The notes beneath the pieces are model-generated. The model saw nothing but the letters and a program-made list of their open reading frames with translations. It was not told where the DNA came from and made no database searches. The position numbers and the translations under genes are program-made. From Chloranthus sessilifolius (Eukaryota > Streptophyta > Magnoliopsida > Chloranthales > Chloranthaceae), in assembly GCA_021018995.1 (NCBI GenBank), contig CM037587.1:61726104-61790103 (forward strand): DNA of 64,000 nucleotides. The letters run 5' to 3'. This document shows positions 37,078 to 61,015 of this stretch, piece by piece (the first letter of the stretch is position 1; every line of letters begins with the position of its first letter).

Positions 37078-37327
37078 AAGAGTCGATATCGATTGCATAA
37101 AATCGATATTGATTGTAAATAAAATCGATATCGACTGTTAAAAAAATCGATATCGATTGCTTATCCAATCGGTATCGACTTCATAAACAATTGTTACCGA
37201 TTGAGTATCCAATTGATATCGATTGTAAAGAGAATCGATAACGATTGGATACTTAATCGGTAACAATTGTTTATGAAGTCGATACCGATTGGATAAGCAA
37301 TCGATATCGATTGTGTATCAATTGTTT
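37078..37327. repeat. 22-bp palindrome array 1, with 58-nt perfect inverted repeat
   Basis: About 11 units with palindromic cores such as ATCGATATCGAT, TCGGTATCGA and TCGATAACGA lie in the transposase leader intron. 37145-37202 and 37255-37312 are exact reverse complements (58 nt) separated by 52 nt, which would give a long stable hairpin if transcribed. Confidence 0.95.
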
Positions 37328-37396
37328 TGCTACCAATTTGTCATTTCTTTTATTCATTCGTCCTATGACTCCTTCCTTCTCCTTCTTAAACAAGCG

Positions 37397-39891
37397 ATGT
37401 CTGGTGTGAAAATTCCTCTTCTCTGTCACTTTGATGGCCATATTGTAAACTATGATGGTTTGAATTAAGGTAGCCGCCGGAGGGTTATTACAATTTCGAC
37501 AAGTATATCTTATGAAAGGTTCAAAAGGCGAATTTCTGTTGTCAATTTTGCGAGAGCAGATGAAACAATTTCTATAAAGTTCTCTATGAAGATAGTGAAT
37601 ACCCTGTGCTTGCCGACGTTTTGGATTCGGATGATTTGGCCACCCTATTTTCGTTTTATAAATCCGGATCGGACATTATAAAGGTATTCATCATTAAAGA
37701 ACCATCCTCCTTCTGATTCGAAGTTGAACAAGTACCTCTAGGTGGGACTGATTTTGTGAGTAACCATTTATTTCAGCCATATAAGTTTGAGGAGGAAGGA
37801 CTTACATATGATACTATTAAGTTAGGCAATGACGGCGATTTTGCGGCAACCATATCCACCATGAAGAAAACTATTGATCTAAACCATGCCCCAGTTGAAT
37901 CATATGATGACTCACTATAAAATATGCATGGGGCACATTGTAGTCAAGAGTTAGACTACACGTCTCTAAGAGTGGGGGATGAAGACTATTTTCATCATAT
38001 CTTTCCCGGTGGATTCACAACTTGGCTGACTCACGAATTATGTTCTACTATGTCATAGATGGGGATTAACGAAGGAGCTCAACCCTATTTCCATACATAT
38101 AATCACCCCTTCAATGAAGGGCCTAGTCAACCATGTAAGAACACGTTCGGTGAAGGGCCTAGTCAGCCATGTCATGACCCGTTTCGTGAAAGGCCTAGTC
38201 AACCACATCAGAACCCCTTCGATGAAGAAGGATCTAGTCAACCACCTCAAAGCACTGCTACTGAAGAAAATGTCGAAGATTATAATGACGAACCGAATGG
38301 ATTTATAAAAGAGGATCCGAAAAATTTTGTGAGAGGCATTGATAATCCCTTAGTAGATGGAGCTTGCGAAGTGTCAGGGACATCAGACGAGTCTTCCGAT
38401 TAAGATGTAGAAATCGAATACCGGAATTGGACGTTTGAAGTTAGAGCAATCTTCAGAGACAAATAAATATTTTAAAGAGCATTAAAAGAGCAAGCGGTGG
38501 AGAAAAACTTTCAAATTCGGCCTTTGAAAACCACTAGTTATCGCGTGACAGCTGGATGCTACGAACCTGATTGTTCATGGTGAATACATGCGTCTAAATT
38601 AATTGGGCTCAAAACTTTCCAAATCAAGATGTTCAATAGTACTCACACACACGGGGCCGCTAAGATTGGACCGCACGGTTACCGTAATGTAAGAATCTCC
38701 TTCGTAGTCAACTATGTACGGGAGAAACTTATGAAAGGATTCGATTACACCCGGCGTCGATAATATTTGATACTGCAAAAGCTTATAATGTGCAAATCTC
38801 ATATGCTAAGGCTTGGAGGGGGAAAGAACTTGCCCTTAATGATATTAGAGGCAGTTAGGAAGGACAATTTGTGAATCAACTAGCCTATGTGAAGGAGATG
38901 GAGAGGGTAGATCCTAATGTACAAACATCCTTTTAACTAACGCTTGACGAAAAATTTTAAAGATTTTTTTAGAGTTTTAGCCCGTGCATCGAAAGCTTCC
39001 GCAATATACTTCGTCACACACTGCTTGTAGATGGCACACACCTATGGGGACGTTTTGAAATGATCCTACTTATTGTCTCGAGACAAGACGGTAATGGCCA
39101 TATATTACTGTTAGTATTTACCGTCGTCGAATTAGAAGAAGAGGATACATGGATGTGGTATCTTAAACGGGTAGGTGCGTTCGTGATCGATGAGTTTACC
39201 GAAGATTTTATTTTTATCACGGATAGGTCGAAGGGTTTAATTAAGGCGGTCAAACATATCTTCCCTAACGCACACCACAACTATTGCATGTGACATATGA
39301 CACAATTTGCAACACAAGTATCCCAAGAACAATGTGAAGGATTTATGGTGGTGTGCCGCACGTGCATATTCAGTAGAAAATTTTGATTATTTTATTAACA
39401 AAATGAAGGAAGATCCTACTGATCCTCAGGCCGTAGAGTATATTTTGAAAATAGACCCAAAGCATTGGGCACGCGCATATATGAAAGGAAGGTAATATGA
39501 TTATCTGACTATGAATAATGTCAAAAGCTTAAACAACGTACTAAAGATAGCTCGAGAGAGACCAATTTTGGACCTAATCAGAACTACTAGAGAGAAAGTC
39601 GTCGAACATTTTCAAAAGCGCAAACAGATATCTGAGAAATGGACCACCCTCCTCTGCCCAAAAGCAGATGGGCACATAAAGAAGGTGCTGCAATGGGCTG
39701 GTAGAAAGAGAGCTCAACCATACAGGCGCGATCAATTCCAGGTTAATTCTAAAAATTGTATTCATCACATCGACTTGGAACACAAGACATGTACTTGTCG
39801 CCGTTGGCACATTCATGGCTTGCCTTGCTCTCATGCCATGGCAGCCATCAATCGGAAAAGTTACGATTACCATAACTTCTGTGAGAAGTAG
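37397..39891 (+). pseudogene. MuDR-type transposase, element A
   Basis: The ATG at 37397 opens MSGVKIPLLCHFDGHIV, like the PB1-like N-terminus of plant MULE transposases. A Ser/Gln/Pro repeat of four ~12-residue units (NPFGEGPSQPC type) lies at 38100-38240. The MuDR DNA-binding region follows near 38430-38640 (FEVRAIF, EKNFQIRPLKTTSYRVTAGC). The catalytic domain contains LLVDGTHLWG (first Asp, ~39026-39055), then DTWMWYLKRVGAF and FIFITDRSKGLIKAV (second Asp). A SWIM zinc finger CTCRRWHIHGLPCSHAM is at 39790-39843, ending HNFCEK. At least eight stops or frameshifts are seen, and part of the frame between 38600 and 38930 is disrupted. Confidence 0.88.
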
Positions 39892-40283
39892 TTTTTTACT
39901 GCTTGCTTTAAACAAATATACGACGAATAATAGCTTCCTACCCTCGATAAAAGTCAATGGGCATTCCAAGCTCAGCAACTGCCTGAAAATATGAAAGTGA
40001 GAGCACCCTACAATTGTCAAAAGTAAGCCGGCCTTCCGAGAAAGAGAAGGATAAGGTATAAGGGTGAGGTTAGGGCCCTATAGTGTAGCAGGTGCAGTGA
40101 GTATGGTCACAATCGCAGGAGTTGGACGGTAATTGGGCCGATGGGTTGATACAGTACAAGAAGTCAGCTACATATTCAACTACACGCCACATTCCACTAG
40201 CTGTAAATTTTTCAAAAAAAAATGTAAAGAAGTATATTTTAATAAAACTTTTAAGCATTTCCAAAACGTTTTGTCAACACAGA

Positions 40284-40545
40284 CAGTCGATATCGACTGT
40301 AAATACGATCGATATCGACTATGAATACAGTCGATGTCGATTTTATAAGAGGTCGATATCGAGTACCTTTATAATCGATAACGATTCCTTATAAAATCGA
40401 TAACGATTGCGAATACAATCGTTATCAACTGCGAATACAATCCTGTTCGATTTCATAAGCAATCGTTATCGATTGTATTCGCAGTCGATAACGATTGCAT
40501 ATTCATTCGATATCGATTGTATTCGCAGTCAATATCGATTGCTTG
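40284..40545. repeat. 22-bp palindrome array 2, between transposase and Ulp1 gene
   Basis: About 12 units lie between the 3' ends of the two convergent genes. Cores include TCGATATCGA, TCGATAACGA and TCGTTATCGA, and spacers alternate GTATTCGCAGT / ACTGCGAATACA, so neighbouring units are partly inverted copies. Confidence 0.93.
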
Positions 40546-40781: not shown

Positions 40782-41095
40782 CTAGGGTGCTGCATCAGTT
40801 GTAGGTTCTTCATCGGTGGCTTTCTCGGCTTCTCCATCGGCAATAAATTTAGCGAGCGCATGGCCAATTTCTGCCCTGATCTGACTCATATTGCCTTGGC
40901 TGAAATTGAATTTCTTCCCCATCATCAAGTACTCTATGTACTTTAAAACAAATACCCCACAGTCCCACCCATTGCTCTGTCGGGGTACAAATTTGACCCT
41001 ACAATCAGAACTTGACCACGAATAGGTCTCAGCATTCAATGCAGTGGAGTCTCCGTGTACATGTAAAAGCGCGGAAAGATATTTGGTCTGTTTTG
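40782..41095 (-). pseudogene. Ulp1 protease C-terminal exon (Gln/Cys box), element A
   Basis: The translation contains FVPRQSNGWDCGVFVLKYIEYL. The Gln (oxyanion hole) and Cys in Q-x-N-x-x-D-C-G are the signature of C48 proteases, and the F..N.sQIR..IG.AL tail is also typical. The frame ends with TAG at 40782-40784 after an acidic, Glu/Thr-rich tail. The acceptor is probably the AG near 41096. This exon alone looks intact. Confidence 0.88.
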
Positions 41096-41174
41096 AAAAG
41101 TGTAATGTCAGACAATGTTTGATAAGATAAGTAGCTAAGATAAGCAAACAAAGAAAATATTTACAGATAATGTT

Positions 41175-41350
41175 TAATCGATTGCCAAACAGTCGACATC
41201 GATTGTATAAGCAGTCGGCATCGACAGTTAAAACTGTCGTTAACGATCGTATAACCAGTCATTAACGATTGTATAACCAGTCGTTAACGATCCTATAACC
41301 ATTCGTTAACGACTGTTTTAACAGTCGATGTTGACTACTTATACAATCGT
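41175..41350. repeat. 22-bp palindrome array 3 (last intron of the Ulp1 gene)
   Basis: Eight units with cores TCGTTAACGA and TCGACATCGA and a very regular 22-bp period (for example AGTCGTTAACGATCCTATAA followed by CC). It fills most of the intron between the His/Asp exon and the Gln/Cys exon. Confidence 0.93.
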
Positions 41351-41405
41351 ATTCTGATGGCGTAAATTAGAAATTAATTGATTTGAAAGTATGGACAATT
41401 CTTAC

Positions 41406-41545
41406 CAGGACGTTAATTTGGATGGGATACTTCTCCTTAGAGGGCCTATCCAAAATTAATCAATGATCATTACCGTTCGTTCTAAAACCTTAACGATCGC
41501 AAGCACCCAATATAAAGGATCATGACTATGGACTGGGACAAATAT
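41406..41545 (-). pseudogene. Ulp1 protease His/Asp exon, element A
   Basis: 140 nt between TTTCAG and GTAAGA. Reads IFVPVHSHDPLYWVLAIVKV, then MIID before a stop. In the family the segment is HW.L.vi and then the catalytic Asp. Here the catalytic His position is Tyr, while B still has LHWSLVIV. A 1-nt deletion right after MIID relative to B shifts the frame. Confidence 0.75.
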
Positions 41546-41601
41546 CTGAAATGACTAATATATTAGAAGACACAATGGTAAAAATAATAAATAAAGTTTA
41601 C

Positions 41602-41902
41602 AGAGACCGTAATTTGCCGTGTTACATTGGTGAGCCCACAGATCCCTTTACCTATTGAAGAAGAAGTTTTTGAGCACCTTCTTGCCTGGGTTGGCTTCTT
41701 CCTTAAGGGCAGCCCACCGTTCAATTTACGTGGCCATCGGTTGGCGATTGAGTTTTTTAGTTTTAACAAAGAATCTGAAATCGTTATAATCTATGGCGAT
41801 ATATGCCAAACCGGTGGAGCTCATCAGGAAGAATTTATCCACAACTTCCGAATGAGCAGCGTCATCCATGACATTCAAAAGTCTTAGGTAGGCTCCAATT
41901 AT
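41602..41902 (-). pseudogene. Ulp1 gene exon 5 (upstream of catalytic core), element A
   Basis: Bounded by TTTCAG and GTAAAC. It reads IIGAYLRLLNVMDDAAHSEV and continues to ERWAALKEEANPGKKVLKNF, which resembles the N-terminal helices before the C48 core. A stop separates the two parts and another follows FFFNR. B keeps the same organisation (about 57330-57628). Confidence 0.65.
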
Positions 41903-41936
41903 CTGAAAGATAATAAATTTCAGTAATCGACTATTC

Positions 41937-42125
41937 AAAGAATCGTTATCGATTCTATACAGAGTCGGTATCGACTGTTAAGATGATCATTAATGATTGC
42001 CTAGATAGTCGGTATCGATTGTTAAGACGATCATTAATGATTGCCTAGATAGTCAGTATCGATTATTTTTACAGTCGTTATCGATTGTGTAAACAATCGC
42101 GATCTACTATCTGGGCAATCGTTCT
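41937..42125. repeat. 22-bp palindrome array 4 (intron 4)
   Basis: About nine units; TCGGTATCGA and TCATTAATGA cores alternate, and a 44-bp pair (AGTCGGTATCGATTGTTAAG plus CGATCATTAATGATTGCCTAGAT) is itself duplicated. Confidence 0.92.
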
Positions 42126-42232
42126 ATTTTTTTAATCAGTCGTTACTATTAGAAAATATTAAAAGAAAATAACATCTTTGAAAATAATTAAGAAATTGAA
42201 TATGAGAGATTTGGTTACTTATAAGATTGTCT

Positions 42233-42307
42233 AAGTATGCCTTGCCTTCCAAACATTTGAAAGTATGCATTCGAAGTGTATAATCACCCATGGAGCTTAC
42301 GTAGATG
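42233..42307 (-). pseudogene. Ulp1 gene exon 4, element A
   Basis: 75 nt reading SIYVSSMGDYTLRMHTFKCL and on to KAYLDNL, a small exon following TTATGCAG. Its donor reads ATAAGT where B has GTAAGT, so splicing here is probably lost in A. Confidence 0.6.
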
Positions 42308-42414
42308 CTGCATAAAATATAACGGTCAAGTTTTAATTCAAAACGAAATTAACTTCTAACTAACAACTAACTATCATCGGAAAAACGGACAAATTACGAA
42401 TATATGTAACTTAC

Positions 42415-42794
42415 TCAGCATCCTGTTCGAGAGCTGTCCAGATGGCATTCATGAACCTCTGCTCATCTGTCAGCTCAACCGTAGGAGGGGGCATCGTCTC
42501 GGTTGGAGGTTTTTTTATCGGCTGCTTTTTTTCGGTCCTAGGCTTCATGACAACATGTTTTACCTTAATCCTAGGCCTCCGGCGAGCATCAAATGGTTGC
42601 TCAGATTGCTCATCACCAGCCGGACCACCCTTATCATCATGATCGTGGGATTGGTTATCAGCTGCTGCCAACTCCTCTTGTGCGGGAGGAGCTGGTGCCA
42701 CATCTACTGATCCCCGATCGACTGGACCAGTAGGTTCTGGTCTCATATTGGCAGTGAGAGACATTTCCGATAACAACTTCGAAACAGCACCATC
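42415..42794 (-). pseudogene. Ulp1 gene exon 3, charged linker, element A
   Basis: Follows TGTTCAG and ends at GCTGA|GTAAGT. Encodes DGAVSKLLSEMSL, a Pro/Ala/Asp/His-rich linker, a basic stretch (RRRPRIKVKHVVMKPRTEKK) that could serve as a nuclear signal, and LTDEQRFMNAIWTALEQDAE. The last motif is conserved in B (LTAEQRYMNAIWTALVEDAE). The frame is open in A. Confidence 0.65.
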
Positions 42795-42867
42795 CTGAAC
42801 ATCGAAAGACATAAAATTGATAAATAAGAAGAACTGAGAGAATAGAATGACCTCTAAAAACAATTTA

Positions 42868-43138
42868 AATCGATTCTAAAACCGATCTAAACCGATCGTA
42901 TTTACAATCGATACCGATTATATTTATAGTCGATACCGACTGTATTTAAAATCGATGCCGATTTATTGTCCAATCGCTAACGATTGAATTTACCATCGAT
43001 AATGATTGTAAATACAATCGATAGCGATTGTACATATGATCGGTATAGATTGGACAATCAAACGGTATCGACTATAAATATGATCGGTATCGATTATAAA
43101 TACGATCGGTATCGATTGTAAATACAATCGTTAGCGAA
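42868..43138. repeat. 22-bp palindrome array 5 (intron 2)
   Basis: About twelve units including TCGATACCGA, TCGATAATGA, TCGGTATCGA and TCGTTAGCGA, with spacers TGTAAATACAA / TATAAATACGA. Confidence 0.93.
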
Positions 43139-43187
43139 TCAATAAAAAATTGAGTTAAACTAAAGCAGACTACACTGCCAATCATAC

Positions 43188-43753
43188 CTTGGGTGTCACC
43201 TCCAAGATCGTTTGAAGGAGTTCTAAAATTTTTCCTTGCTCTTTCTGGATCATCTTGTTGAAGTGATCCGCTGTTTGTAATTGAACATCCCTTGAAGTGA
43301 GCCGGTCTTCAAAGGAGGTGCATTGTGTCCGGAGGAGCCTATTCTCCTCCGCCAACTGCTTATTCCCTTCCACCAATTGGTTAACTAACTCTTTCAAATG
43401 GCTCGCTTTTTGGTTGATTTTCAAGTTATCCAACTCCAAACCATCAATCCTCCTCAACAACTCTTGATTAGAGGAGGTTGGTGTACTGCCGCTTGTCTTT
43501 GCGGCAACCCTTCTAGGCCGGTCTAATTAGACTTGGTCCTCATCTGACAAAGAGCCTTCGTCAGACGTTGTTTCATCCTCAAATTCTTCCTCTTCAAGTT
43601 CTTTGACCGAAATATAATTTCTTTTCTTCTTGGGTCGCAAATCAACTTCCACAGCTTTCTTGACCTCCTCAACCTCTTTCCTCTTCTCCGCTAATAATCC
43701 CTTACGAGGGGTATCTCCAACTCGAAGGTAACAGGTTCGAGGGGAGAGTAAAT
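43188..43753 (-). pseudogene. Ulp1 gene exon 2, acidic and coiled-coil region, element A
   Basis: Bounded by GTAACAG and GTATGA. Encodes RVGDTPRKGLLAEKRKEVEE, a basic RPKKKRNY motif, an acidic run (EEEEFEDETTSDEG), a TAA stop at 43528, then RPRRVAAKTSGSTPTSSNQE. It ends in a heptad-like stretch (LRRIDGLELDNLKI...LVNQLVEGNKQLAEENRLL) predicted to be a coiled coil. B retains the same layout (58640-59247). Confidence 0.7.
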
Positions 43754-43857
43754 CTGTTACGAAAAAGGACAGGTTGTAAAATAACATAGAAAAATTACAG
43801 AGAAAATTAAACTATCACTGTAATATAATGACTGCTTAATGACTGGAAAGCGATTTC

Positions 43858-43995
43858 ATCTACAGTCGATACCGATTGTGTATAAAGTCGATACCGATTA
43901 TGTAGGAAGTTGATACCGATTGCTTAATCAATCGATCCAATTAGATAGTCAGTCGATTCCAACTACGTAGGCAGTCGATATTGATTAATTTGGTA
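43858..43995. repeat. 22-bp palindrome array 6 (intron 1)
   Basis: Six units, cores TCGATACCGA and decayed variants (TTGATACCGA, TCGATATTGA), filling the middle of the intron. Confidence 0.9.
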
Positions 43996-44075
43996 ATCAG
44001 AATCCTCCACTTTACTTTTTAAAGTCCTTACAAATTTACCTTTACAAATTTGAATTATTTAAAACGACATCATAC

Positions 44076-44878
44076 CTTGCTCTCCACCATCTTCGCAAGA
44101 GTGTAGCCTTTAGTCCTCGTTTGGGGCTTCTCCGCCCACTTCAACAATCAGGGGAAAGGGTTTATCATTGACGTTCTTTGAGGTGAGACGTCAGGCAGTA
44201 TCTCATAGGCCCACCACTGAAGTACACACATACATCTATAAATATTATACAGCTTAAGGGTTTTATCGTTGTAGGAAGTCTTTCTATTTGCCACGCCCTT
44301 CTCTATATACTCCAGCAAGTCTTTGAAGACGTAGAGACCCCACGGGGTTTTCTTGAAGTTCTCCACGTCATTGATGAGTTCAACGTAGTCTTCCGACAAT
44401 TGATGATGGGACCCGGGAAAAAGGAATGTACATAGAACAAAAAGAAGAGCCAACTTGACGAAGTCATCATCACTTTGCGCTAGCCTCAATCCATTTTCAA
44501 TATGAGACCGAATAATTTTCCCGACCGGTAGTCCTCGAAAATATTTGTATCGAATGGTTTCCTCTTCAGGTGCTTTAATGGAAGGGGAATATTGTTGGGG
44601 TTCAACCACCACAAGGCCCAGTATTAAGGCAACGTCCATCTTTCGAAGATAGACATCTCTCCTCCAGATTTGAAAGTGGTTCTTCTCAACCCAAAAACTT
44701 AACATGGCATCCACAACCTCTCCAGCAAAACTAACACCCTTTGGCATTTGGAATATTCTCTCGAAAACTGATGCACTTAGCAACTCCTTCCGCTTCGGGC
44801 TAGCGTCATCGTAGATCTTCGAAATACTAGTAGGAGAACATTTGCCAACAACACGTTGTACAACCATTTTGCAAGCTT
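44076..44878 (-). pseudogene. Ulp1 gene exon 1, DUF1985 / plant-mobile-domain-like, element A
   Basis: Follows ATACAG; ATG at 44867 starts MVVQRVVGKCSPTSISKIYD. The 239-codon frame shows FQMPKGVSFAGEVVDAMLSF, then VALILGLVVVEP, RSHIENGLRLAQSDDDFVKL and a C-terminal ELINDVENFKKTPWGLYVF. This fold pattern (L..l...D..dF.kL.LLf.l...l, LindvenF...pWG) is that of DUF1985, commonly paired with Ulp1 domains in plant transposons. The stop after PFP replaces the Arg codon seen in B; the exon then continues to a GTATGA donor. Confidence 0.7.
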
Positions 44879-44936
44879 CTGTATATGAACTCTAATAAAA
44901 TTAAAAGAGATTGTTTATAATCAGGCTACATAAAAA

Positions 44937-45132
44937 ATTGTCGATTCCCTAGACAATCGTCATCGACTGATTACACAATCGTCATCGACTAATTACACAA
45001 TCGTCCTCGACTGATTACACAATCGTCATCGACTAATTACACAATCGTCATCGACTGTTTATACAATCGAGATCGATTATATGAACAATCGTTGTCAATC
45101 GCATTAACAATCGATATCGATCGTATATGCAA
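44937..45132. repeat. 22-bp palindrome array 7 (upstream of exon 1)
   Basis: Five consecutive units of CAATCGTCATCGACT plus RATTACA, then four others. The duplicated copy at 50527-50690 has three of the first type. Confidence 0.93.
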
Positions 45133-45420
45133 TCGAGCATGGATTAGGAAGATGGAAGATGAGCAGGTGGTGGATGGTGTGGGGAGGTGGGTGGTTCCGT
45201 CCCATAGGAACTGAAGAGGATCTAGTTCTTGTGGTGGTGGTGGGTCCTCCCATATAGGATCAAACTTTATTGGGTTATAGTAGGATTTAGGGGTTTTATC
45301 GTCGTTGTCTGACATTGGAAAATATGGGCTGATAGGGAAAATAGGGAATGATTTTACTGGTGATGGTGGAATACGAAGTGTTGTATTAAATTTTCTCATC
45401 CTTCCGAGCTTTCTTACCAT
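45037..45420 (-). pseudogene. unidentified captured exon, copy 1
   Basis: ATG at 45420 opens MVRKLGRMRKFNTTLRIPPS, then PYFPMSDNDDKTPKSYYNPI and DPIWEDPPPPQELDPLQFLW. The protein is Pro/Asp-rich with a basic N-terminus and is unlike the Ulp1 gene. Element B has no equivalent, so it may be a fragment of a host gene acquired by A or its ancestor. Relative to copy 2 (50690-51064), a ~106-bp deletion removes the segment after FLWDG. I do not recognise the family. Confidence 0.45.
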
Positions 45421-45602
45421 AATGGTTGAACAGAAGGTTAGTTGGCAATATATTAGATGTCGGCTGATATAAATAAAAACATCATATTCATTATGGGTGA
45501 AGGCTTTGAAGAGTTCATATGATGGGTCCTATCTTGACAGCTTGTTAAAATGAACAGTCTTATACTAACACCCATTGGTTAAATGTTAAAATAAACTGTA
45601 AT

Positions 45603-45768
45603 ATAGTCGATATCGATTGTATATATAGTCGATATCGATTATAAATCGATTGTGTTTATAATCGATATCAACTATATATACAATCGATATCGACTATAAA
45701 TATAATCGATGTCGACTATATATGCAATCGATATTGACTATATATACAATCAATATCGATTGTATTTA
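45603..45768. repeat. 22-bp palindrome array 8 (5' UTR intron)
   Basis: Seven or eight units, cores TCGATATCGA with CG-to-TG/CA variants (TCGATATCAA, TCGATATTGA). It recurs almost unchanged at 51250-51415. Confidence 0.93.
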
Positions 45769-45860: not shown

Positions 45861-46080
45861 AGGTTTGGTAGCTTGAAGATTGAAGAACCGAATGCTAGCG
45901 ACTTGCGACCGCCTCTCCACCAACTTCGAACGAAAAAGTAAAAAGTAAAAAGGTAAACAGTGAAGGGTTTGGTGAAGGCGGCTATTTATTACATTTTGGG
46001 TAAATCCGATATTTCCTAAAGGTGAAAGATGGCTCGACGCATAGCGGGTCGATTTGGGTAAAGGTGAAACTATAGGGTCT
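45861..46080 (-). other. Ulp1-gene 5' UTR exon and truncated right TIR, copy 1
   Basis: On the minus strand the sequence ends GCTACCAAACCT|GTAAGT, a clear donor (45855-45860). Its counterparts are 51510-51726 and, in B, about 60735-60830. The TIR is cut off at 46080, where B-derived sequence is joined. Confidence 0.6.
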
Positions 46081-46275
46081 CTTGACCTCTTCAACCCTCT
46101 CTTTCCTCTTCCCCCCAACAGCCTTTAGACCCCCTTGATAATCCCTTACGAGGGGTATCTCCAACTTGAAGGAAACGGGTTCGAGGGGAGTGTAAATCTG
46201 TTACAACAAAGGACGAGTTGTAAAATAAAATAGCAAAAATGATAAAAAGTCGAATAAAGAAAACTGAACTATTAC

Positions 46276-46522
46276 TGCAATATATCGACTGCTTAACAAG
46301 TCGATACTGATTTCATTTACAGTCGATATCAATTTTGTGGGAAGTCGATAACGATTTCCTAAGCAATTGCTATCGACTGCGTTCATAGTCGTTATCGACT
46401 ACGTACGCAATTGTTAACAACTACGTAGGCAGTCGATAATGACTACGCACGAAGTCGATAGTGATTACTTCGGAAGTCGATGAAGACTGCGTAGGAAATC
46501 GATATCGACTGGTTAAGGAGTC
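46276..46522. repeat. 22-bp palindrome array 9 (B-type intron 1 array, duplicate)
   Basis: Eleven units, nearly identical to 59325-59570. Cores TCGATAACGA, TCGTTATCGA and TCGATATCGA, with several decayed units. Confidence 0.93.
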
Positions 46523-47248
46523 GAAATCTTCCAATTTACTATTTAAATCGACAGCATACCTTCTTGTCCAGCATCTTCACAAGAGTGCAGCCTTTCGTCC
46601 TCATTTGTGGCTTCTCCGCCCACTTCAACAATCGTGAGAAAAGGTTCATCATGGGCATTTTTTGAGGTGAGATGTCAGGCAGCATCTCATAGGAGGGCAT
46701 TTCCTAAAGGAGGGCGACGGCTCGGCGTGCAGCCGGTTGGTTTGGGTAAAGGTGAAAATATAGGGTCTCTGACGTAAAAGGTACATCTGACAGGGTCGAT
46801 CAGGTAAATTTCCCTAGAAATATGCATCACCATTGATAAGGCCATGAGCGTTAGGAGCTTTCAGAGAATGACTGTCTCATAGGTGAGCCATGATAGGTGA
46901 GCCATGATCTCAAAATCTATTGTGTGGAAGAGCAGGCTGAAACACAATCTTCATTAACTGATTTGAAGCAATAAACGATTTTGAAGGGGTTTGAGACATA
47001 GGAGCTTTCAGAGAATGTGTGACCGCGAAAAGAGCCACCCTTAAATTATTATGAAAATAGGTATTGATTTGAAATATTTACCAAAACAGGTTTCTGGTAT
47101 CGAACTTGGTATCTAATTTCCAAAAACTATTATACCAAAACGGGAATATGATCCTGATTTGGTAAGTATTTAGAATTGATCCCTTGTTTTATAATACTTT
47201 GGAAATCTGTACTTGTGTTGGTAAATTTCCCCTTTTTTTTACAAGGTT

Positions 47249-50162: not shown

Positions 50163-50526
50163 CTTTAATGGAAGGGGAATATTGTTGGGGTTCAACCACC
50201 ACAAGGCCCAGTATTAAGGCAACGTCCATCTTTCGAAGATAGACATCTCTCCTCCCGATTTGAAAGTGGTTCTTCTCAACCCAAAAACTTAACATGGCAT
50301 CCACAACATCTCCAACAAAACTAACACCCTTTGGCATTTGGAATATTCTCCCGAAAACTGATGCACTTAGCAACTCCTTCCGCTTCGGGCTAGCGTCATC
50401 GTAGATCTTCGAAATACTAGTAGGAGAACATTTGCCAACAACGCGTTATACAACCATTTTGCAAGCTTCTGTATATGAACTCTAATAAAATTAAAAGAGA
50501 TTGTTTATAATCAGGCTACATAAAAA

Positions 50527-50690
50527 ATTATCGATTCCCTAGACAATCGTCATCAACTAATTACACAATCGTCATCGACTAATTACACAATCGTCATCGA
50601 CTGTTTATACGATCGAGATCGATTATATGAACAATCGTTGTCGATCGCATTAACAATCGATATCGATCGTATATGCAATCGAGCATGGAT
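50527..50690. repeat. 22-bp palindrome array 10 (duplicate of array 7)
   Basis: Same array as 44937-45132 but two 22-bp units shorter: three CAATCGTCATCGACT-type units in place of five. Confidence 0.93.
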
Positions 50691-51064
50691 TAGGAAGATG
50701 GAAGATGAGCAGGTGGTGGATGGTGTGGGGAGGTGGGTGGTTCCATCCTCTTTATTTTCTTTTTCTTTCTTTTCTTCTTTTTCTTTTTCTTTTTCTTATT
50801 CTTTTCTTCCTTCGCCAAAATTTTCATTACTTCATCGTATCCGTCCCATAGGAACTGAAGAGGATCTAGTTCTTGTGGTGGTGGTGGGTCTTCCCATATA
50901 GGATCAAACTTTATTGGGTTATAGTAGGATTTAGGGGTTTTATCGTCGTTGTCTGACATTGGAAAATATGGGCTGGTAGGGAAAATAGGGAATGATTTTA
51001 CTGGTGATGGAGGAGTACGAAGTGTTGTATTAAATTTTCTCATCCTTTCGAGCTTTCTTGCCAT
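50690..51064 (-). pseudogene. unidentified captured exon, copy 2 (longer)
   Basis: ATG at 51064 opens MARKLERMRKFNTTLRTPPS. After LDPLQFLWDG it continues YDEVMKILAKEEKN into a Lys-rich run encoded by a TTTTTC-type repeat (50750-50810), then PPTSPHHPPPAHLPSS and a stop within array 10. The Lys run and tail are probably intron or repeat read-through, so the true exon likely ends near 50815. Family not recognised; no equivalent in element B. Confidence 0.45.
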
Positions 51065-51249
51065 AATGGATGAACAGAAGGTTAGTTGGCAATATATTGG
51101 ATGTCGGCTGATATAAATAAAAACATCATATTCATTATGGGTGAAGGCTTTGAAGAGTTCATATGATGGGTCCGATCTTGACAGCTTGTTAAAATGAACA
51201 GAGTCTTATACTAACACCCATTGGTTAAATGTTAAAATAAACTGTAATA

Positions 51250-51415
51250 TAGTCGATATCGATTGTATATATAGTCGATATCGATTATAAATCGATTGTG
51301 TTTATAATCGATATCAACTATATATACAATCGATATCGACTATAAATAAAATCGATGTCAACTATATATGCAATCGATATTGACTATATATACAATCAAT
51401 ATCGATTGTATTTAT
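51250..51415. repeat. 22-bp palindrome array 11 (duplicate of array 8)
   Basis: Seven or eight units, the same order as 45603-45768 with a few substitutions. Confidence 0.93.
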
Positions 51416-51781
51416 AAGAATATTAAAAATTACGACAAAATGGACACCGACAAAAGAAGAAGAAAAAACTCAACAGCAATTAATGATAATTTTATTAGCT
51501 ACTTACAGGTTTGGTAGCTTGAAGATTGAAGAACGGAATGCTAGCAACTTGCGACCGCCTCTCCACCAACTTCGAACGAAAAAGTAAAAAGTAAAAAGGT
51601 AAACAGTGAAGGGTTTGGTGAAGGCGGCTATTTATTACATTATGGGTAAATCCGATATTTCCTAAAGGCGAAAGATGGCTCGACGCGTAGCGGGTCGATT
51701 TGGGAAAAGGTGAAACTATAGGGTCTCTGCAGTAAAAGGTACATCTGACAGAGTTGGTCAGGTAAATTTCCCTTCTTATAT

Positions 51782-52328: not shown

Positions 52329-52779
52329 TAGAAATATGGGAATTTACCTAATCGACCCTGTCAGATGCAGCTTTTACTTCAGAGACCCTATATTTACACC
52401 TTTACCCAAACTGATCAGCTCGAAGCCGAGTCGACCTTAAGGAGAATAAAAAGTCCAAATTACCCCCTTCTCTGACTTTCTTTAACCCACAAATGCGTCC
52501 CCTTCTTCCTCATTTTAGTTTGCTAGAGTTAGTAAGAAGTTAGAGGTAGTGAAGGTGACGACGTCTTCTGCCTCAAATCTGTTACTTGGAAGAAAAAAAC
52601 AGAGGCTTGGGAGAAGAAGCTCCTGCATTTTGCCCCTGGGTGTTGAAGATCCTGCAATTTTTCATTCCGACGCGAGGTATGTACAGATCCAGTGTAAACT
52701 CCATCAAAAGCATCTTAGAAGTATAAAAAATATAATTTTATTTCGGAAAATTAATTTTACTAGGTAAATATATCAAAAC

Positions 52780-52822
52780 AGTCGATAAAGACTTTATACA
52801 CAATTGATATCGATTGTTTATC
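52780..52822. repeat. 22-bp palindrome array 12 (remnant in leader intron of B)
   Basis: Only two units remain (CAGTCGATAAAGACT and CAATTGATATCGATTG) at the place where A has the 250-bp array 1, so the array size is very different between sisters. Confidence 0.8.
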
Positions 52823-52898
52823 AGTTATTTTGCTAACAATTTTTCATTCCTCCTTTTTGTCATCAGTCTTATGATCCCTTCCTTCTCCTTAAATAGGC

Positions 52899-55355
52899 GA
52901 TGTTGTTTGTAAAAATTCCTCTTCTTTGTCACTTTGATGGCCATATTATAAACGATGATGGTTTGTATGAAGGTGGCCGTCGGATGGTTATTACAATTTC
53001 GACGGGTATTTCTTATGAACGATTCATAAGGCGAATTTCTGCGGTCAGTTTTACGAGGGCAGGATAAAACAATTTTCATAAAGTTCTCTATGAAGATAAT
53101 GAATACCCCTGTGCTTGCCGACGTTTTGAATTCGGATGATTTGGCCACCCTATTTTCATTTTATAAATCCGGGTTGGACATTATAAGGGTATTCATCATT
53201 AAAGAATTGTCCTCCTTCGGAGTCGAAGCTCAACAAGTACCTCTTGATGGGATTGATTTTGTGAGTAATCATTCCTTCTAGCCATATAAGTTTGAGAAAG
53301 AAGGACCTATATATGATACTATTCGATTAGGCGTTGACAGAGATTTTTCGACAAATATATCGACCATGAAAGCAACTATTGATTTAAATGATGCTGCAGT
53401 TGAATCATTTGATGACCCACTACAAATTATGCATGAGTCATAACATTGTAGTCAGGAGTTAGACTTCACGTCTCTACGAGTGCGGGATGAAGGTGATTTT
53501 CCTCATATCTTCCCTGGTGGATTCACAATTTGGCTGACTCACGAATTATATTCTACTATGCCATCGATGGGGATTACCGGAGGAGCTCTACCACATGTCT
53601 ATACACATGAGCACCCCTTCGGTGAAGGGCCTAGTTAACCATGTCAGAACCCGTTTGGTGAAGGGCCTAGTCAATCATGTCATGACCCGTTTCGTGAAAG
53701 GCCTAGTCAACCACATTAGAACCCCTTCGATGAAGAAGGATCTAGTCAACCACCTCAAAACACTACTACTGAAGAAAATGTCGAAGATTATGATGATGAA
53801 CCGGATGGATTTATAAAAGAGGATCCAAAAAATTTTGTGAGAGGCATTGATAATCCCTTAGTAGATGGAGCTTGCGAAGTGTCAGGGACATCGGACGAGT
53901 CTTCCGACTAAGATGTGGAAATCGAATATCGGAATGGGACGTTTGAAGTTAGAGAGATCTTTAGAGACAAATAAATATTTCAAAGAGCATTAAAAGAGCA
54001 GGCGGTGGAGAAAAACTTTCAAATTCGGCCTTTGAAAACCACTAGTTATCGCATGACAGCTGGATGCTACGAACCCGATTATTCATGGTGAATACATGAG
54101 TCTAAATTGACTGGGCTCGACTCTTTCAAAATTAAAATATTCAATAGCATATGAGATTTGAAGCATATGAGATTTACATATTATAAGCTTTTACAATATT
54201 AAACATTATCGACGCTGGTGTGTAGTAGAATCCTTTCATAAGTTTCTCCCATACATAGTTGGCTACGAAGGAGATTGTTGTATTATGGTGACCGTACGGT
54301 CCGATCTTAGAGGCAGTTGAAAAGGATAATTTGTGGATCTACCGGCCTACGTGAAGGAGATAGAGAAGGTAGATCCTAATGTACAAACATCCTTTCAACT
54401 TACACTTGACGGTAAGTTTTAAAGATTTTTTTAGAGTTTTGGCCCGTACATCAGAAGCTACTGCAATACACTTCATCGCACATTACTTGTAGATGGCACA
54501 CACCTATGGGGACATTTCGAATGGATCCTACTTATCACCTCGGTGCAAGACGGTAATGGTCATATATTACCATTAGCATTTACCGTCGTCGAGTTAGGAG
54601 AAGAATATACGTGAATGTGATTTCTTGAACGGGTAAGTGCGTTCGTGATCGGTGAGTTTACCAAAAATTTTGTTTTTATCATGGATAGATCGAAAGGTTT
54701 AATAAAAGCGGTCAAATATGTCTTCCCTAATGCATACCATAACTACTACATGCGATATATGACACAAACATTTAGCACACAAGTATCCCAGGAATAATGC
54801 GAAGGGTCTATGGTGGAGCATTGCATGTGCATATTCAGTAGAGAGATTTGATTATTTATTAATAAAATGAAAAAAGATCCTGCTAATCCTCGGGCTATAG
54901 ATTATATTTTAAAAATAAACCCAAAGCATTGGGCACATGCGTATATGAAAGGAAGGCAGTACGATTCCCTGACTACGAATAATGCTGAAAGCTTGAACAA
55001 TATACTAAAGATAGCTCGAGAGAGATCAATTATTGACTTAATCAGAACTATTAGAGAGAAAGTCGCCGATCATTTTCAAAAGCGTAGATAGATATCTGAG
55101 CAATGGACCACCCTCCTCTGCCCGAAAGCAGACGAGCACATGAAGAAGGTGTTGTAATTGTCCGATAGAAAGAGAGCTCAACCATATGGGCACGATCAAT
55201 TCCAAGTCAATTTAAAAAATTTTATTCATCATGTCGACATGAAACACAAGACGCATACTTGCCACCGTTGGCACATTCATGGCTTGCCTTGCTCGCATGC
55301 CGTGTCGGCCATTAATTGGAGAAGTTACGATTACCATAACTTCTGTGAGAAGTGA
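52899..55355 (+). pseudogene. MuDR-type transposase, element B
   Basis: ATG at 52899 opens MLFVKIPLLCHFDGHI, colinear with A. The Ser/Gln/Pro repeat lies at 53600-53760 in a shifted frame. LLVDGTHLWG is near 54490-54520 and DRSKGLIKAV near 54685-54715. A 74-codon stretch (54867-55091) carries LKINPKHWAHAYMKG, and the SWIM finger (TCHRWHIHGLPCSHAV) is at 55257-55305. In the SWIM motif the first Cys of C-x-C is His (HTC), so the zinc site is damaged. The MuDR DNA-binding region is partly inverted or rearranged near 54130-54310 compared with A. Many stops. Confidence 0.85.
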
Positions 55356-55974
55356 TTTTTTACTGCTTGCTTTAAACAAACATAGATGATCAATGGCTTC
55401 CCACCCTCGATAAAAGCCAATGGGAATTCTAAGTTGAGCAATTGCCTGAAAATTTGAAAATTAGACCACCCTATAATTGTTAAAAGCAAGCCGACAGCCC
55501 GAGGAAGAGAAGGATACGGTCTAATGGTGAGGTTAGAGCCTTATAGTGTAGCAGGTACAATGAGTATGGTCACAATCGCAGGAGTTGCACCGCAATGGGA
55601 CCAATGGGGTGATATAATGCGTACCTCCTTCACATAATAAATCGCTGTAGCGTTCCAAGTTTTGTATCTATGATTTTGCTAAATTGCATTTTCAATTTTA
55701 GGAGTTTTGTAAGTTGCATTTTTCTATCTATGAACAAATGAGATTTTTTTCACACAGGTGTTGGAGATAGATCGCCATCTAGAAACAGTACAAAAAGTTG
55801 GATAGATCATACATACTTTAATACAAACACCTCACAGTTCATTAGTTATAAATTTTAATGTAATATATAAGTTGAATTTCCATTAAAAATGTAAAGAAGG
55901 GCATTTTAGTAGAACTTTCAACATTTTCTCAAAACTTTCAGTACATACAACTTTTAGCATTTTCTCATAACAGA

Positions 55975-56195
55975 CAGTCGATATCGACTGCTTATACAGT
56001 CATTAACAATTGCGGATACAGTCGATATCGATTGTATAAGCGGTCGTTAACGATCGAATAATCAGTTGTTAACGAATGCTTATACAGTCGATATCGACTG
56101 GGTCTGTAATCGTTAACGACTGTATAAGCAGTCATTAATGACTCCTTAAAAAGTCTGTATAAGCAGTCATCAATTGTCAATACGGTCAGCGGATA
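55975..56195. repeat. 22-bp palindrome array 13 (between the two genes of B)
   Basis: About ten units with TCGATATCGA, TCGTTAACGA and TCATTAATGA cores and TGCTTATACAGT / ACTGTATAAGCA spacers. Position corresponds to array 2 of A. Confidence 0.93.
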
Positions 56196-56727
56196 TAGTT
56201 GCACCTACTTAAGATTACAAATTTCCTAAAGCAGTCGAATGTTGCAATACCCATATATTTTTGTACGAAAATTAAAATTTTCATTTACAAATTTTCATGA
56301 ATGATCAGCTTACAACTAAATATAATTATAACTTATGAAAAAAACTAGGGTGGTGCATCAGTAGTATGTTCTCCATCGGTATTTTGCTCGACTTCATCAT
56401 CGACAGTGAATTTGGCAAGGGCCTGACTAATTTCTGTCCTGATCTAATTATTTTGTCTTCAATAAAGTCGAATTTCTTTTTCGTCATGAAGTACTCTACA
56501 TACTTCAACACAAACACCACACAGTCCCACCCATTGCTCTGTCGGGGTACAGATTTGGTCCAGCAATCAGAACTTGACCAATGATACTTCTCAGCGCTCA
56601 ATGCAGTGGAGTCTCCGTGTAAATAAAAAAGCGCGAGAAGGTAATGGGTCTGTTTTGAAAAGTGCAATGTCAGATAAGATAAGCAAACAATGAAAAAATT
56701 TAGTAAAACTTTCAGTATTTTCTCAGA

Positions 56728-56992
56728 TACCGATTATTAATACGGTCGATATCAACTTTATAAGAAGTCAAAATCAACTGTTAGTACAATCGTTAACGAC
56801 TGCTTATACAATCAATAACGACTGCTTATATAATCGTTGAAAGACTACTAATACAGTCGATATCGATTGTATAGGCAGTCGTTAATGATTGTATAAGCAG
56901 TCGTTAATGACTGCTTATACAATCGACATCGACTGTATCAACAGTCGTTATACAATTGAAATCAACTGTCTCTACAGTCGATATTGACTGTC
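56728..56992. repeat. 22-bp palindrome array 14 (last intron of B Ulp1 gene)
   Basis: About twelve units, cores TCGTTAACGA, TCGTTAATGA, TCGATATCGA and TCGACATCGA. Same intron as array 3 of A. Confidence 0.93.
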
Positions 56993-57647
56993 AATATGGG
57001 TGTATTTGAAAAGTGTAATGTCATATAAGATAAGCAACTAAGATATTAAAAATTTATAAATTCTTGAAAATATTAAAAATATTTATAAGATAAGGAGTCA
57101 ATATTAAAAATTTATAGATTCTTACCAGGACCTTCAATTAGACGGGATACTTCTCCTTAAAGGGTCTATCCAAAATAGGGTCAACGATCATTATCGATTG
57201 TTAGATAACCTTAACGATCACAAGCGACCAATGTAATGGGTCGTGGCTATGGATTGGGATAAATATCTAAAATGAATAATATAATATTAGAAGATATAAT
57301 TTGAAAATTATAAAAATTGTTGGTAGCAATCGTAATATACTGTGGTACATTGGGGAGCCCAGAGATCTCTCAACCGATTGAAGAAGAAGTTTTGGAGCAT
57401 CTTCTTGCCTGAGTTCATCTCTTCCTTGAGGGCAGACCACCATTTGATTTGCATGTCCAACGCTTAATCGTTGAGTTTTTCAGATTCAATAAATATTATG
57501 AATTCATTATACTCCATGGCCATATAAGCCAAAGTGGTGGGGCTCATAAAGAATAATTTATCCTTTACCTCAAGATGAGCAGTGTAATCCATGACTTCCA
57601 GAAGTCTTAGGTAGGCTCCCAATATCTGAAAGAAAAAAAAATTGAGT

Positions 57648-57856
57648 AATCGATTATATAAAAAATCGTTATCGATTCTATACACAGTCGGTATCGACTG
57701 TTAAGACGATCATTATCGATTGTTAATGCGATCGTTACCAACTATTAATACAATCACTACCGACTGTTAATACGATCATTACCGACTGTTAATACGATCG
57801 TTAACGATTGTTTAGAAAATTATTAGCGATTGTTTAGACAGTCATTTTTGACTATT
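57648..57856. repeat. 22-bp palindrome array 15 (intron 4 of B)
   Basis: About nine units, cores TCGTTATCGA, TCGGTATCGA and decayed TCATTACCGA and TCACTACCGA forms. Same intron as array 4 of A. Confidence 0.93.
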
Positions 57857-58441
57857 AAGGATTACTTACAATATTGTTTAAGTGTCCCTAGCTCTCTAAA
57901 TATTTGAAGGCATACATCCGGAGTTTATAATCACCCACGGTGCTTACGTAGGTGTTGCATATAAAATAACGACAAAAGTTTAAATTCAAAACGAAATTAA
58001 TTACTATCATAAAAAAATGGATAAATTACAAAAATAACTTACTCGGCATCCTCAACGAGAGCTGTCCATATGGCATTCATGTACCTCTGCTCAGCTGTCA
58101 GCTCAATCGTATCAGAGGGCATCATCTCTGCTGCAAGATTTTTTACCGGCTGCTTTCTTCCAGTCCTAGGCTTCGAGACACCAGTTTTTGTTTTAATCCT
58201 AGGCCTCAAGCGAGTATCCAATGGTTGGTCGAAATGCTCATCACCAGCCAGACCACCCTTATCAGCATGAGCCTGGGATTGATTGTCAGCTACTGCCACC
58301 TCCTCTTATGTGTCTTGCGGGAGAGGAGGTGGTCCCATATCTGAGGGTCCCTTATCTCCTGGACCCTCGATAACAACTTTGAAACAGTATCATCCTAAAC
58401 ATCGAAAGAAATTAAATGGATAACTAACCAGATATTAAAAA

Positions 58442-58605
58442 ATGATATCGACTCTATATACAATCGGAATCGCCTACAAATACAATCATTATCGATTGTG
58501 GATACAATCGGTATCGATTGTGCATGCAATCGTCATCGATTGTGGATACAATCGGTATCAATTGTGCATACAATCATTATCAGTTGTTCATATAATCGTT
58601 ATCGA
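58442..58605. repeat. 22-bp palindrome array 16 (intron 2 of B)
   Basis: Seven units; regular alternation of TCGGTATCGATTGTGCATG and TCGTCATCGATTGTGGATA types. Same intron as array 5 of A. Confidence 0.93.
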
Positions 58606-59324
58606 AATAATTCATAGCAGACTATATTATGACCCATACCTTAGGTGACACCTCTAAGATCGTTTGAAGGAGTTCAATAATTTTCCCTTGCTCCTTTCGG
58701 ATAAACTTGTTGGAGTGATTAATCGTTTACAGCTCTACATCCCTTGAAGTGAGACGGTCATCAAAGGAGGTGCTTTGTGTCTGAAGGACCTTATTGTCTT
58801 CCACCAGCTGCTTATTCTCTTCCACCAACCGCTTCACTAACTCTTCCAAATGGCTCACTTTCTGGTTGAGTTTCAAGTTCTCCAATTTCATACCGTCAAT
58901 CCTCCTCAACAGCACTTTATTAGAGGAGTTGGTGTACTGCCGCTCGTCTTTGTGGCATCCCTTCTCGGCCGGCCTAATTGGACGGGGACCTCTTCTGACG
59001 ACGAGTCTTCATTCGACGTTATTTCGTCTTCAAACTCTTCCTCGTCAACTTCTTTGATCGGAAGGTAATTTCTTTTCTTCTTGGGTCGGATATCAAATTT
59101 CACAGCTTTCTTGACCTCTTCAACCCTCTCTTTCCTCTTCCCCCCAATCTTCCCCCCAATAGCCTTTAGACCCCCTTGATAATCCCTTACGAGGCGTATC
59201 TCCAACTTGAAGGAAATGGGTTCTAGGGGAGTGTAAATCTGTTACAACAAAGGACGGGTTGTAAAATAAAATAGCAAAAATGATAAAAAGTCGAATAAAG
59301 AAAATTAAACTATTACTACAATAT

Positions 59325-59570
59325 ATCGACTGCTTAACAAGTTGATACTGATTTCATTTACAATCGATATCAATTGTGTGGGAAGTCGATAACGATTTCC
59401 TAAGCAATTGCTATCGACTGCGTTCATAGTCGTTATCGACTACGTACACAATTGTTAACAACTACGTAGGCAGTCGATAACGACTACGCACGAAGTCGAT
59501 AGTGATTACTTCGGAAGTCGATGAAGACTGCGTAGGAAGTCGATATCGACTGGTTAAGGAGTCGAAATCT
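59325..59570. repeat. 22-bp palindrome array 17 (intron 1 of B)
   Basis: Eleven units, nearly identical to the duplicate at 46276-46522 and in the same intron as array 6 of A. Confidence 0.93.
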
Positions 59571-60485
59571 TCCAATTTACTATTTAAATCGACAGCATAC
59601 CTTCTTGTCCAGCATCTTCACAAGAGTGCAGCCTTTCGTCCTCATTTGTGGCTTCTCCGGCCACTTCAACAATCGTGAGAAAAGGTTCATCATGGGCATT
59701 TTTTGAGGTGAGATGTCAGGCAGCATCTCATAGGCCCACCATTGAAGTACACACATACAACCATAAACATTATACTGTTATCATTGTCGACAGTCTTTCT
59801 ATTTGTCACGCTCTTCTCTATATACTCCAACAAGTCATTGAACACGTAGAGAGCCCACGGAGTTTATTTGAAGTTCTCGACGGCATCGACGAGTTCAACG
59901 TGCTCTTCCAACAATTGATGGTGGAACCCGGGAAAAATAAATGTACACAGAATAAATGGAAGACCCAACTTTACGAAGTCGTCATCACTTTCTGCTAGCC
60001 TTAATCCATTTTCTATATGAGACCGAATAATTTTTTCGGTCGGTAGTCTATGAAAATATTTGTATCGAATGGTTTCCTTTTCTGGTGGGTTAACGGAAAA
60101 GGTATACTGTTGGGGTTCAACCACCTCAAGGCCATGTATTAAGGCAATATCCATCTACCGAAGAGAGATATCTCTCTTTCCGATTCGGAAGTAGTTCTTC
60201 TCAACCCAAAAACTCAATATGACATCGACGACTTCTCCAACAAAGCTAACACCGTTGGGAATTTGTAATATTCCACCGAAAACTGATACTCTGAGCAACT
60301 CCTTCCGTTGCGGGCTTGCCTCCTCGTAGACCTTTGAAATGCTAGTAGGCGAACATTTGCCAACAGCCTGCTGTACAACCATCTTCACGACTTCTGTAAA
60401 TGAGCTGTAATAAAAGAGAATGTTTATAATTGAAAGGCGTGACTCGGATACTAAAAGAGATTGTTTATAATCAGGCTAGTTAATA

Positions 60486-60625
60486 ATAGTCATCGATTAT
60501 TAAGACAATTGATACCGATTGTTAAAACGATCGATAACGATTTCATACACAATCGTTATCGATCGCTTTAACAATCGGTATCGATTGCCTTAACAATCGA
60601 TAACAATTGTATAAGAAATCGTTAT
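60486..60625. repeat. 22-bp palindrome array 18 (5' UTR intron of B)
   Basis: Six units, cores TCGATAACGA, TCGTTATCGA and TCGGTATCGA. Corresponds to arrays 7/8 of A. Confidence 0.92.
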
Positions 60626-61015
60626 TACTCCGTTATTTTAGTATAAAAAAGAAAATTAATTCTAAACATAGACCGTCGAAAGAAGAATAAAAAATTCTAC
60701 AACAATGGAAGGTAATTTAATTTCTAACTTACAGATTTGGTAGCTTGAATATTCAAAAACGGAGCGCCAGCGACTACGAATCGACACCGTCTCTCCACCG
60801 ACTTCGAACAAAAAAGTAAAAAGTAAAAAAGGTAAACAGTAATGAGTTGAATAAAGGATGGCTATTTATTACCTTGGGGGTAATTTCGGCATTTCCTAAA
60901 GGAGGGCGACGGCTCGGCGTGCAGCCGGTTGGTTTGGGTAAAGGTGAAAATATAGGGTCTCTGACGTAAAAGGTGCATCTGACAGGGTCGATCAGGTAAA
61001 TTTCCCTAGAAATAT

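Follow-up and report, generated by a model that had tools for sequence, protein, structure and literature searches.

Palindromic 22-bp repeat arrays in two TIR-bearing Mutator-like elements of Chloranthus sessilifolius as probable targets of VANC-type anti-silencing

The closest described systems to the one considered here are the VANDAL elements of Arabidopsis. VANC21, a DUF1985 protein encoded by the Mutator-like element (MULE) VANDAL21 (Hiun), binds the motif YAGTATTAY and strips methylation from its own family; arrays of this motif occupy the element's introns and its intergenic and terminal non-coding DNA and for the most part avoid exons (PMC5735166). VANC6 recognises a different motif, and VANC targets evolve as tandem repeats; the main text of the same article contains none of the words palindrom, Ulp1 and SUMO (PMC5735166). 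RNA-directed DNA methylation (RdDM) acts on non-coding regions of VANDALs (PMC10398659), some relatives in the VANDAL clade have terminal inverted repeats (TIRs) (PMC6446971), and a 2026 review describes KIU elements, whose VANC genes carry Ulp1, as recognising motifs in their own non-coding DNA (PMC13317346). Here, we analyse a window of 64,000 nucleotides of Chloranthus sessilifolius (assembly GCA_021018995.1, contig CM037587.1, positions 61,726,104 to 61,790,103, forward strand), which contains two MULEs, A and B, whose long introns and gene spacer harbour arrays of a 22-bp repeat.

We propose that these arrays serve in cis as the targets of a VANC-type anti-silencing protein, which would read them as a dimer, in a MULE that has TIRs. 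Judged from sequence and by analogy with the Arabidopsis elements, this reading appears probable, at roughly 0.72: since the locus has the anatomy of a VANC target system, it most likely works in the same way.

The motif CARTCGNTANCGAYTG, allowing up to two mismatches, has 108 matches in the window, every one within 37080–60609, against 0.39 expected (100 dinucleotide shuffles, largest 3), and Tandem Repeats Finder (TRF), which is blind to the motif pattern, also called period-22 arrays; the arrays of this period that an earlier note, made from the letters alone, had reported in both elements are thereby confirmed. Outside the two elements, the window contains no array of at least three units. 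The 21 merged TRF arrays (2,809 bases) hold 30 dyads of 16 bp (at least 7 of 8 pairs), whereas 200 Markov runs gave 6.7 on average and never more than 16; their dyad density is 10.7 per kb versus 1.7 per kb in positions 1–36000. Both the periodicity and the palindromic consensus are real, and the majority of single units are imperfect palindromes. The palindrome is a property of the consensus rather than of correlated variants: the central pair 7–10 is complementary in 0.417 of 168 units (22 arrays), versus 0.423 with shuffled columns, which shows no covariation and contradicts the earlier statement that the central bases change together on both arms. Complementarity in excess of column shuffling is limited to the outer pairs 1–16 (P = 0.004) and 2–15 (P = 0.008).

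The arrays occupy the places previously noted, namely the transposase leader intron (10 units in A, 2 remaining in B), the stretch separating the convergent genes, and the Ulp1 gene's long introns. No array was called at the 56- and 107-bp introns, these introns themselves not being modelled. The features are as follows; arrays were identified by unit scan, further sources are given in parentheses, and a strand is stated where one applies.

36664–36763, plus strand: left TIR of A (GGGAAATTTACCTGAYCGACCC...) (inverted match to the other ends; target-site duplication TTCTTATAT)
37100–37313: array, 10 units, transposase leader intron (also inverted-repeat test and RNA fold)
37390–40100, plus strand: decayed MULE transposase gene, with MULE in 38973–39293 and SWIM in 39496–39891 (Pfam; ends approximate, by eye)
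40284–40541: array, 12 units, between the convergent genes
40782–45422, minus strand: VANC-like accessory gene of A (Pfam; splice consensus at some exon ends; exon ends approximate)
Exons of this gene, minus strand: N exon; DUF1985, 44148–44891; coiled-coil-like, ~43191–43740; proline-rich, ~42411–42802; Ulp1 C48, 40782–~41130
41169–41380: array, 10 units, intron
41940–42152: array, 10 units, intron
42861–43140: array, 13 units, intron between the coiled-coil-like and proline-rich exons
43841–43987: array, 7 units, intron between the DUF1985 and coiled-coil-like exons
44932–45145: array, 10 units, intron upstream of the DUF1985 exon
45604–45762: array, 2 + 5 units (33-bp period by TRF), upstream part of the accessory gene
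46083–50165: inserted duplicate of B's right end, TIR and flank, containing the array 46276–46554 (13 units) (sequence comparison)
50163–51772, minus strand: second copy of A's right part, with arrays 50522–50691, 51250–51287 and 51305–51408 and the TIR partner of 36664
52338–61006: element B with TIRs and target-site duplication TAGAAATAT (sequence comparison, target-site duplication)
52779–52816: remnant array, 2 units, B transposase leader intron
55975–56189: array, 10 units, between B's convergent genes
56721–56957: arrays, 5 + 5 units, B intron
57663–57854: array, 9 units, B intron
58439–58608: array, 8 units, B intron
59317–59595: array, 13 units, B intron
60484–60631: array, 7 units, B intron upstream of the DUF1985 exon

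A and B are TIR-bearing MULEs with 9-bp target-site duplications (TSDs). On a corrected layout, A's left end at 36664 has its partner at 51772 rather than at 46814, with TTCTTATAT on both sides (36655–36663 and 51773–51781), and B is likewise flanked on both sides by TAGAAATAT (52329–52337 and 61007–61015). The family TIRs are ~100 bp long, and left and right ends are 88–89% alike; A's left TIR matches 46718–46814 in inverted orientation at 88.7% and 60910–61006 at 87.6%. Among the loci with a scored end pair (A, B and the loci L011, L018, L012, L013 and L017 from elsewhere in the genome), the TSD agrees at 9/9 bases at the called ends of A (36664/51772), B, whose left end was set by eye, L011 and L018, at 9/9 after a 1-bp shift in L012 and L013 (that of L013 being A-rich) and at 7/9 after shifts in L017. 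The transposase matches PF10551 (MULE, 1.6e-17) and PF04434 (SWIM, 1.3e-9) and, with both domains, TIRs and TSDs of ~9 bp, the elements belong to the Mutator superfamily. Both are decayed: the reading frames of A are broken, and B has no open frame of 150 amino acids. The segment 46083–50165 consists of pieces of B's right end and flank surrounding an unmatched stretch (47249–49071), with 46080–46693 equal to 59109–59734 at 95.8%, 46696–47248 to 60888–61440 at 99.3% and 49072–50166 to 61436–62531 at 99%, and 50163–51728 repeats the right part of A at 91–97.5%. The locus has undergone a recent complex duplication, with a copy of B's right end and flank inside A and part of A repeated beyond it. 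A 36-bp tandem repeat is also seen in the N-terminal part of the transposase of both elements (38115–38244 and 53613–53752).

In A, the accessory gene matches Pfam DUF1985 at 5.4e-8 (33.4 bits, cut-off 35.1) and the Ulp1 peptidase family C48 (PF02902) at 7.7e-9; the C48 match of B has 3.1e-5, both C48 matches being above cut-off, and coiled-coil models match A's coiled-coil-like exon only below threshold. PF09331 (DUF1985) matches nine of ten family exons scanned, at 5.4e-8 to 2.1e-5, the miss being a 106-aa fragment in B. When the family DUF1985 profile was compared by hhalign with L049, a DUF1985 copy of this genome above the Pfam cut-off, a probability of 97.6 was obtained (E 3.5e-12, 179 columns). 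L049 alone finds VANC21 (PDB 9lnj and 9lnk) at 1.4e-4, a further copy, L051, gives no more than 0.7 on its own, and a profile of 14 DUF1985 exons of this genome, nine of them from the family, has VANC21 as its sole PDB match (E 3e-10). Across 36 pairs of nine family DUF1985 exons, chosen for lack of stops, dN/dS is 0.41. A search of a set of 5.8 billion proteins with the DUF1985 exon gave no match, and the AlphaFold2 model of the window exon alone (mean pLDDT 38) was discarded.

The placement of the arrays is constant among copies found by protein. A genome search with the DUF1985 exon scored 150 copies among 6,596 candidates and, in all of the 30 loci listed (one of them the window), a chain of 5–15 units lies directly after this exon. 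At least two units lie directly before the exon in 29 of the 30, L045 having one. Exon-homologous bases account for 57,531 of the 212,474 in those retrieved copies that match exons, and of 1,200 units scoring at least 13 there, 8 overlap such bases and none the DUF1985 exon; exons, described before as free of arrays, are nearly so.

The spacing is fixed. Among 1,069 gaps of at most 80 bp between neighbouring units, counted independently of the array caller, which admits 21–23-bp steps only, 22 bp occurs 916 times, 21 bp once and 23 bp never. Although adjacent units differ at 5.8 of 22 positions, all but 24 of 788 steps within called arrays measure 22 bp; the terminal regions of these copies, by comparison, show 0.066 gap events per substitution. 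We measured column information in 149 indel-free TRF arrays, phased to the consensus and with no unit-by-unit pattern filter: positions 2–6 and 11–15 have 0.96–1.84 bits and the TA at 8–9 has 1.09–1.14, versus 0.40 at position 7 and 0.32 at position 10 of the variable centre and 0.21–1.04 in the spacer. Within the family, motif comparison revealed modest shifts, chiefly in the centre and the outer bases.

In the 2.17-Gb genome the exact motif has 6,898 sites, versus 8 for the reversed pattern. We read 10 kb around each of 14 clusters formed by 50 exact sites listed from C1:1–6.09 Mb. Seven carry family transposase exons (L006, L008, L009, L011, L014, L015 and L017); the other seven match none of nine query pieces, save for a 32% MULE match in L018 outside its element. 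At least one family TIR end is present in all 14 clusters, and six of the seven non-coding loci have their main arrays enclosed by a pair of family TIR ends 0.95–2.0 kb apart. L007 is a weak member: its TIR is 2 kb off the arrays, and these align with internal sequence of L013. Thirteen of the sampled clusters clearly, and L007 weakly, belong to this transposable element family, and a randomly dispersed satellite, which the earlier note had named as the observation that would count against its description, is not supported. The short non-coding elements (L005, L010, L012, L013, L016 and L018) form a family of ~1–2 kb with inverted ends of ~300 bp and 70–86% mutual identity, having in common with A and B mainly the outer 100–140 bp and the 22-bp arrays. 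An inexact three-unit array of the window motif family was also observed at L012:8951–9010, outside the TIR-bounded element of that locus.

A second DUF1985 family was found to carry another palindrome. From a PF09331 genome search (150 scored copies, all above cut-off), five copies were read, 4.5 kb each (L049–L053). L051 (C15:87959801–87964300) contains arrays of GAAGCG-N4-CGCTTC, where the first family has CARTCG-N4-CGAYTG. This word is the best of 4,096 half-sites by five gaps in L051, with 19 sites (at least 10 of 12 arm bases) versus a maximum of 6 in 12 Markov runs. Its arrays, with steps of mostly 20–25 bp, surround the DUF1985, coiled-coil-like and proline-rich coding stretches, and weaker matches occur elsewhere too; the DUF1985 region is 36% identical to that of the window over 148 amino acids. 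Genome-wide, this second motif occurs 1,484 times forward and 1,394 times in reverse, against control counts of 10 and 8. On C1 to 147.36 Mb, six of eight family-2 and none of 11 family-1 DUF1985 copies have a listed site no more than 10 kb away, at a random-point rate of 0.0075; one of nine copies of the PF09331 list on C1 has one too, and that one is a family-2 copy. The C48 genome list, in which the best 150 of 4,423 candidates were scored, is uninformative on a connection between this family and Ulp1. The proline-rich stretch of L051 also contains 24-bp and 6-bp tandem repeats.

If the arrays are VANC-type targets, the protein of the second gene, with its DUF1985 region, coiled-coil-like and proline-rich parts and Ulp1-type end, would bind the 16-bp palindromes as a dimer, one subunit on each half-site (CARTCG / CGAYTG) across the 4-bp gap. 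Because the repeats are 22 bp apart, about two helical turns, successive dimers would face almost the same side of the double helix. Where arrays are dense, along the long non-coding stretches, the protein might then coat and demethylate the entire element; short relatives with the same TIRs and arrays would be demethylated likewise, and the transposase could then act at the TIRs. Binding by a protein, which the earlier note listed among several roles, is the likely answer in its general form.

The statement in the earlier note that no described MULE has such arrays overlooks the Arabidopsis VANDALs, whose intron and intergenic motifs are bound by their own VANC (PMC5735166). Like VANDAL21, the elements described here are MULEs with tandem short motifs in non-coding DNA, and their accessory protein is DUF1985-like, matching this domain below the Pfam cut-off but showing strong homology to copies above it; the VANDAL21 motif is, however, non-palindromic and in a single orientation (PMC5735166), whereas here a 16-bp palindrome recurs with a period of 22 bp. 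VANDAL6 is likewise a DUF1985 system with its own tandem motif, at least two bases off that of VANC21, and no palindrome is mentioned in the main text for its motifs AGTTGTCC and AGTTGTAC (PMC5735166), whereas the two families here share a palindromic frame and differ at half-site positions. With KIU (Kaonashi) of Arabidopsis they share the Ulp1 domain in a VANC-like gene of a MULE (PMC13317346). KIU elements are described as non-TIR MULEs and TIRs are present here, which sets A and B apart by description. The abstract of Sasaki 2022 on KIU is said to cover motif sequence, density, helical periodicity and non-autonomous copies. As in VANC systems, tandem short motifs lie in non-coding parts of the same element and are rare in exons, and the motif differs between related families, on the evidence of one second family (L051). 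From the published VANC-type descriptions considered here, the elements depart in their palindrome, repeated at a constant 22-bp step, in having intact TIRs, and in the sharing of one frame by two families with different half-sites. No description of a palindromic VANC-type motif was found in the literature searched, which was covered in part. Since TIRs are present, we do not file the elements under VANDAL or KIU.

Several observations weigh against an anti-silencing function of this kind. VANDALs have no or degenerate TIRs (PMC6446971, PMC10398659), and those of the present family are ~100 bp long. DUF1985 scores below the Pfam cut-off in all nine matching exons (24.9–33.4 versus 35.1 bits), and the fragment of B has no match; neither the window exon alone nor the nine family exons alone find VANC21 in the PDB, so that the link to VANC21 runs through relatives. 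Past the 22-bp step, the helical phase is not strict: only 72 of the 153 other gaps are multiples of 11 (33 bp, 27; 44 bp, 39; 55 bp, 4; 66 bp, 1; 77 bp, 1), and 43 bp occurs 21 times. CpG retention in the arrays (0.73–0.75) is no better than in the DUF1985 exon (0.81; 24 copies) and so does not point to long-term shielding from methylation. Selection by motif was the basis for the seven short elements, which show that such elements can carry arrays, with no implication for how frequently they do. Three of the five other DUF1985 copies read (L049, L050 and L053) have no palindrome above the null. In L052, the TGGTGATCGATCACCA arrays were considered as a third motif and rejected, as they sit in an apparent long terminal repeat (LTR), taken to start near L052:2648, that interrupts a DUF1985 gene; TGGTGATCGATCACCA is a perfect palindrome, arrayed at L052:3402–3845 with a period of 19–21, and has 3,672 exact genome sites, 49 of the 50 listed lying at 62–67 Mb of C1.

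The first alternative, modelled on the En/Spm subterminal repeats read by TnpA, is that the transposase binds the arrays as internal sites, for synapsis or transcription regulation, and that the accessory protein has nothing to do with them. At each end the outermost array is some hundred bases from the terminus, the short and the full elements share the outer TIR and the arrays, and a transposase differing by family would equally predict family-specific motifs, a further point to be counted against the VANC-type interpretation. Nevertheless, we regard this alternative as unlikely. The sites of En/Spm TnpA and MuDR MURA are subterminal or in the TIRs, whereas the arrays here extend throughout introns, most of them internal, in the accessory gene, and the proteins are different. 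What those systems have in common with the one proposed here is that an element's own protein acts on its own element, tied to demethylation (PMC10398659); the precedent considered here for intron arrays in a MULE is VANC and not VANA (PMC5735166).

Alternatively, the arrays might act as RNA, the transcribed introns folding into long hairpins that yield small RNAs or regulate splicing. The array 37100–37313 is a 93% inverted repeat across 168 bp, and the RNA of 37080–37313, the one array folded, forms a single long hairpin (-153 kcal/mol, z -25), which gives partial support to the hairpin role listed in the earlier note; non-coding VANDAL regions are also targeted by RdDM (PMC10398659). Mirror order, an inverted repeat at the level of the array, was found beyond permuted unit order (P ≤ 0.015, 200 permutations) in seven of the 18 arrays of at least five units, two of which (46276–46554 and 59317–59595) are copies of each other. 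The remaining 11 arrays are not mirror-ordered by this measure, the pairing bases at the centre do not covary, and the region separating the convergent genes is filled with arrays too. A dimer that binds DNA would better account for the constant 22-bp spacing and the palindromic half-sites, and we consider an RNA function improbable. Marginally less probable still is a functionless intron minisatellite multiplied by slippage and carried along: the variation from 1 to 16 units per chain over 30 loci is as expected of slippage, and VANC targets evolve likewise, but the half-sites are conserved more than the variable centre and most of the spacer, 21- and 23-bp steps are nearly absent, the same intron is occupied in 30/30 protein-found copies and a second family has another word in the same architecture.

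Returning to the VANC-type interpretation, we tentatively consider an extended form of it, at somewhat less than even odds, in which two sister MULE families would have private anti-silencing codes built on one frame (16-bp palindrome, 4-bp gap, ~22-bp period, DUF1985/Ulp1 dimer). A change of half-site from CARTCG to GAAGCG would switch specificity, short TIR-bearing elements without genes would ride along, and mirror-ordered arrays would form long hairpins feeding host RdDM.

If the arrays are indeed such targets, sequence-specific anti-silencing by DUF1985 proteins extends beyond the TIR-less Arabidopsis VANDALs to a TIR-bearing MULE family whose motif sites number in the thousands in a genome of 2.2 Gb. 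The palindrome yields a testable hypothesis on how DUF1985 proteins read DNA, as dimers at fixed spacing, and sister families with changed half-sites would constitute a natural experiment on the joint change of a protein and its target.

Elsewhere in the window, three tandem copies of a ~4-kb unit, 94% identical and with no open frame of 150 amino acids, occupy 11165–21098, and a short tandem array with a period of ~21 bp (GTCACGATTTGAGTGAACAGT) lies at 33189–33338, outside the MULEs. Retroelement matches, to reverse transcriptase (RVT_1) and an RNase H-like domain (RVT_3), are present at 2612–4375.

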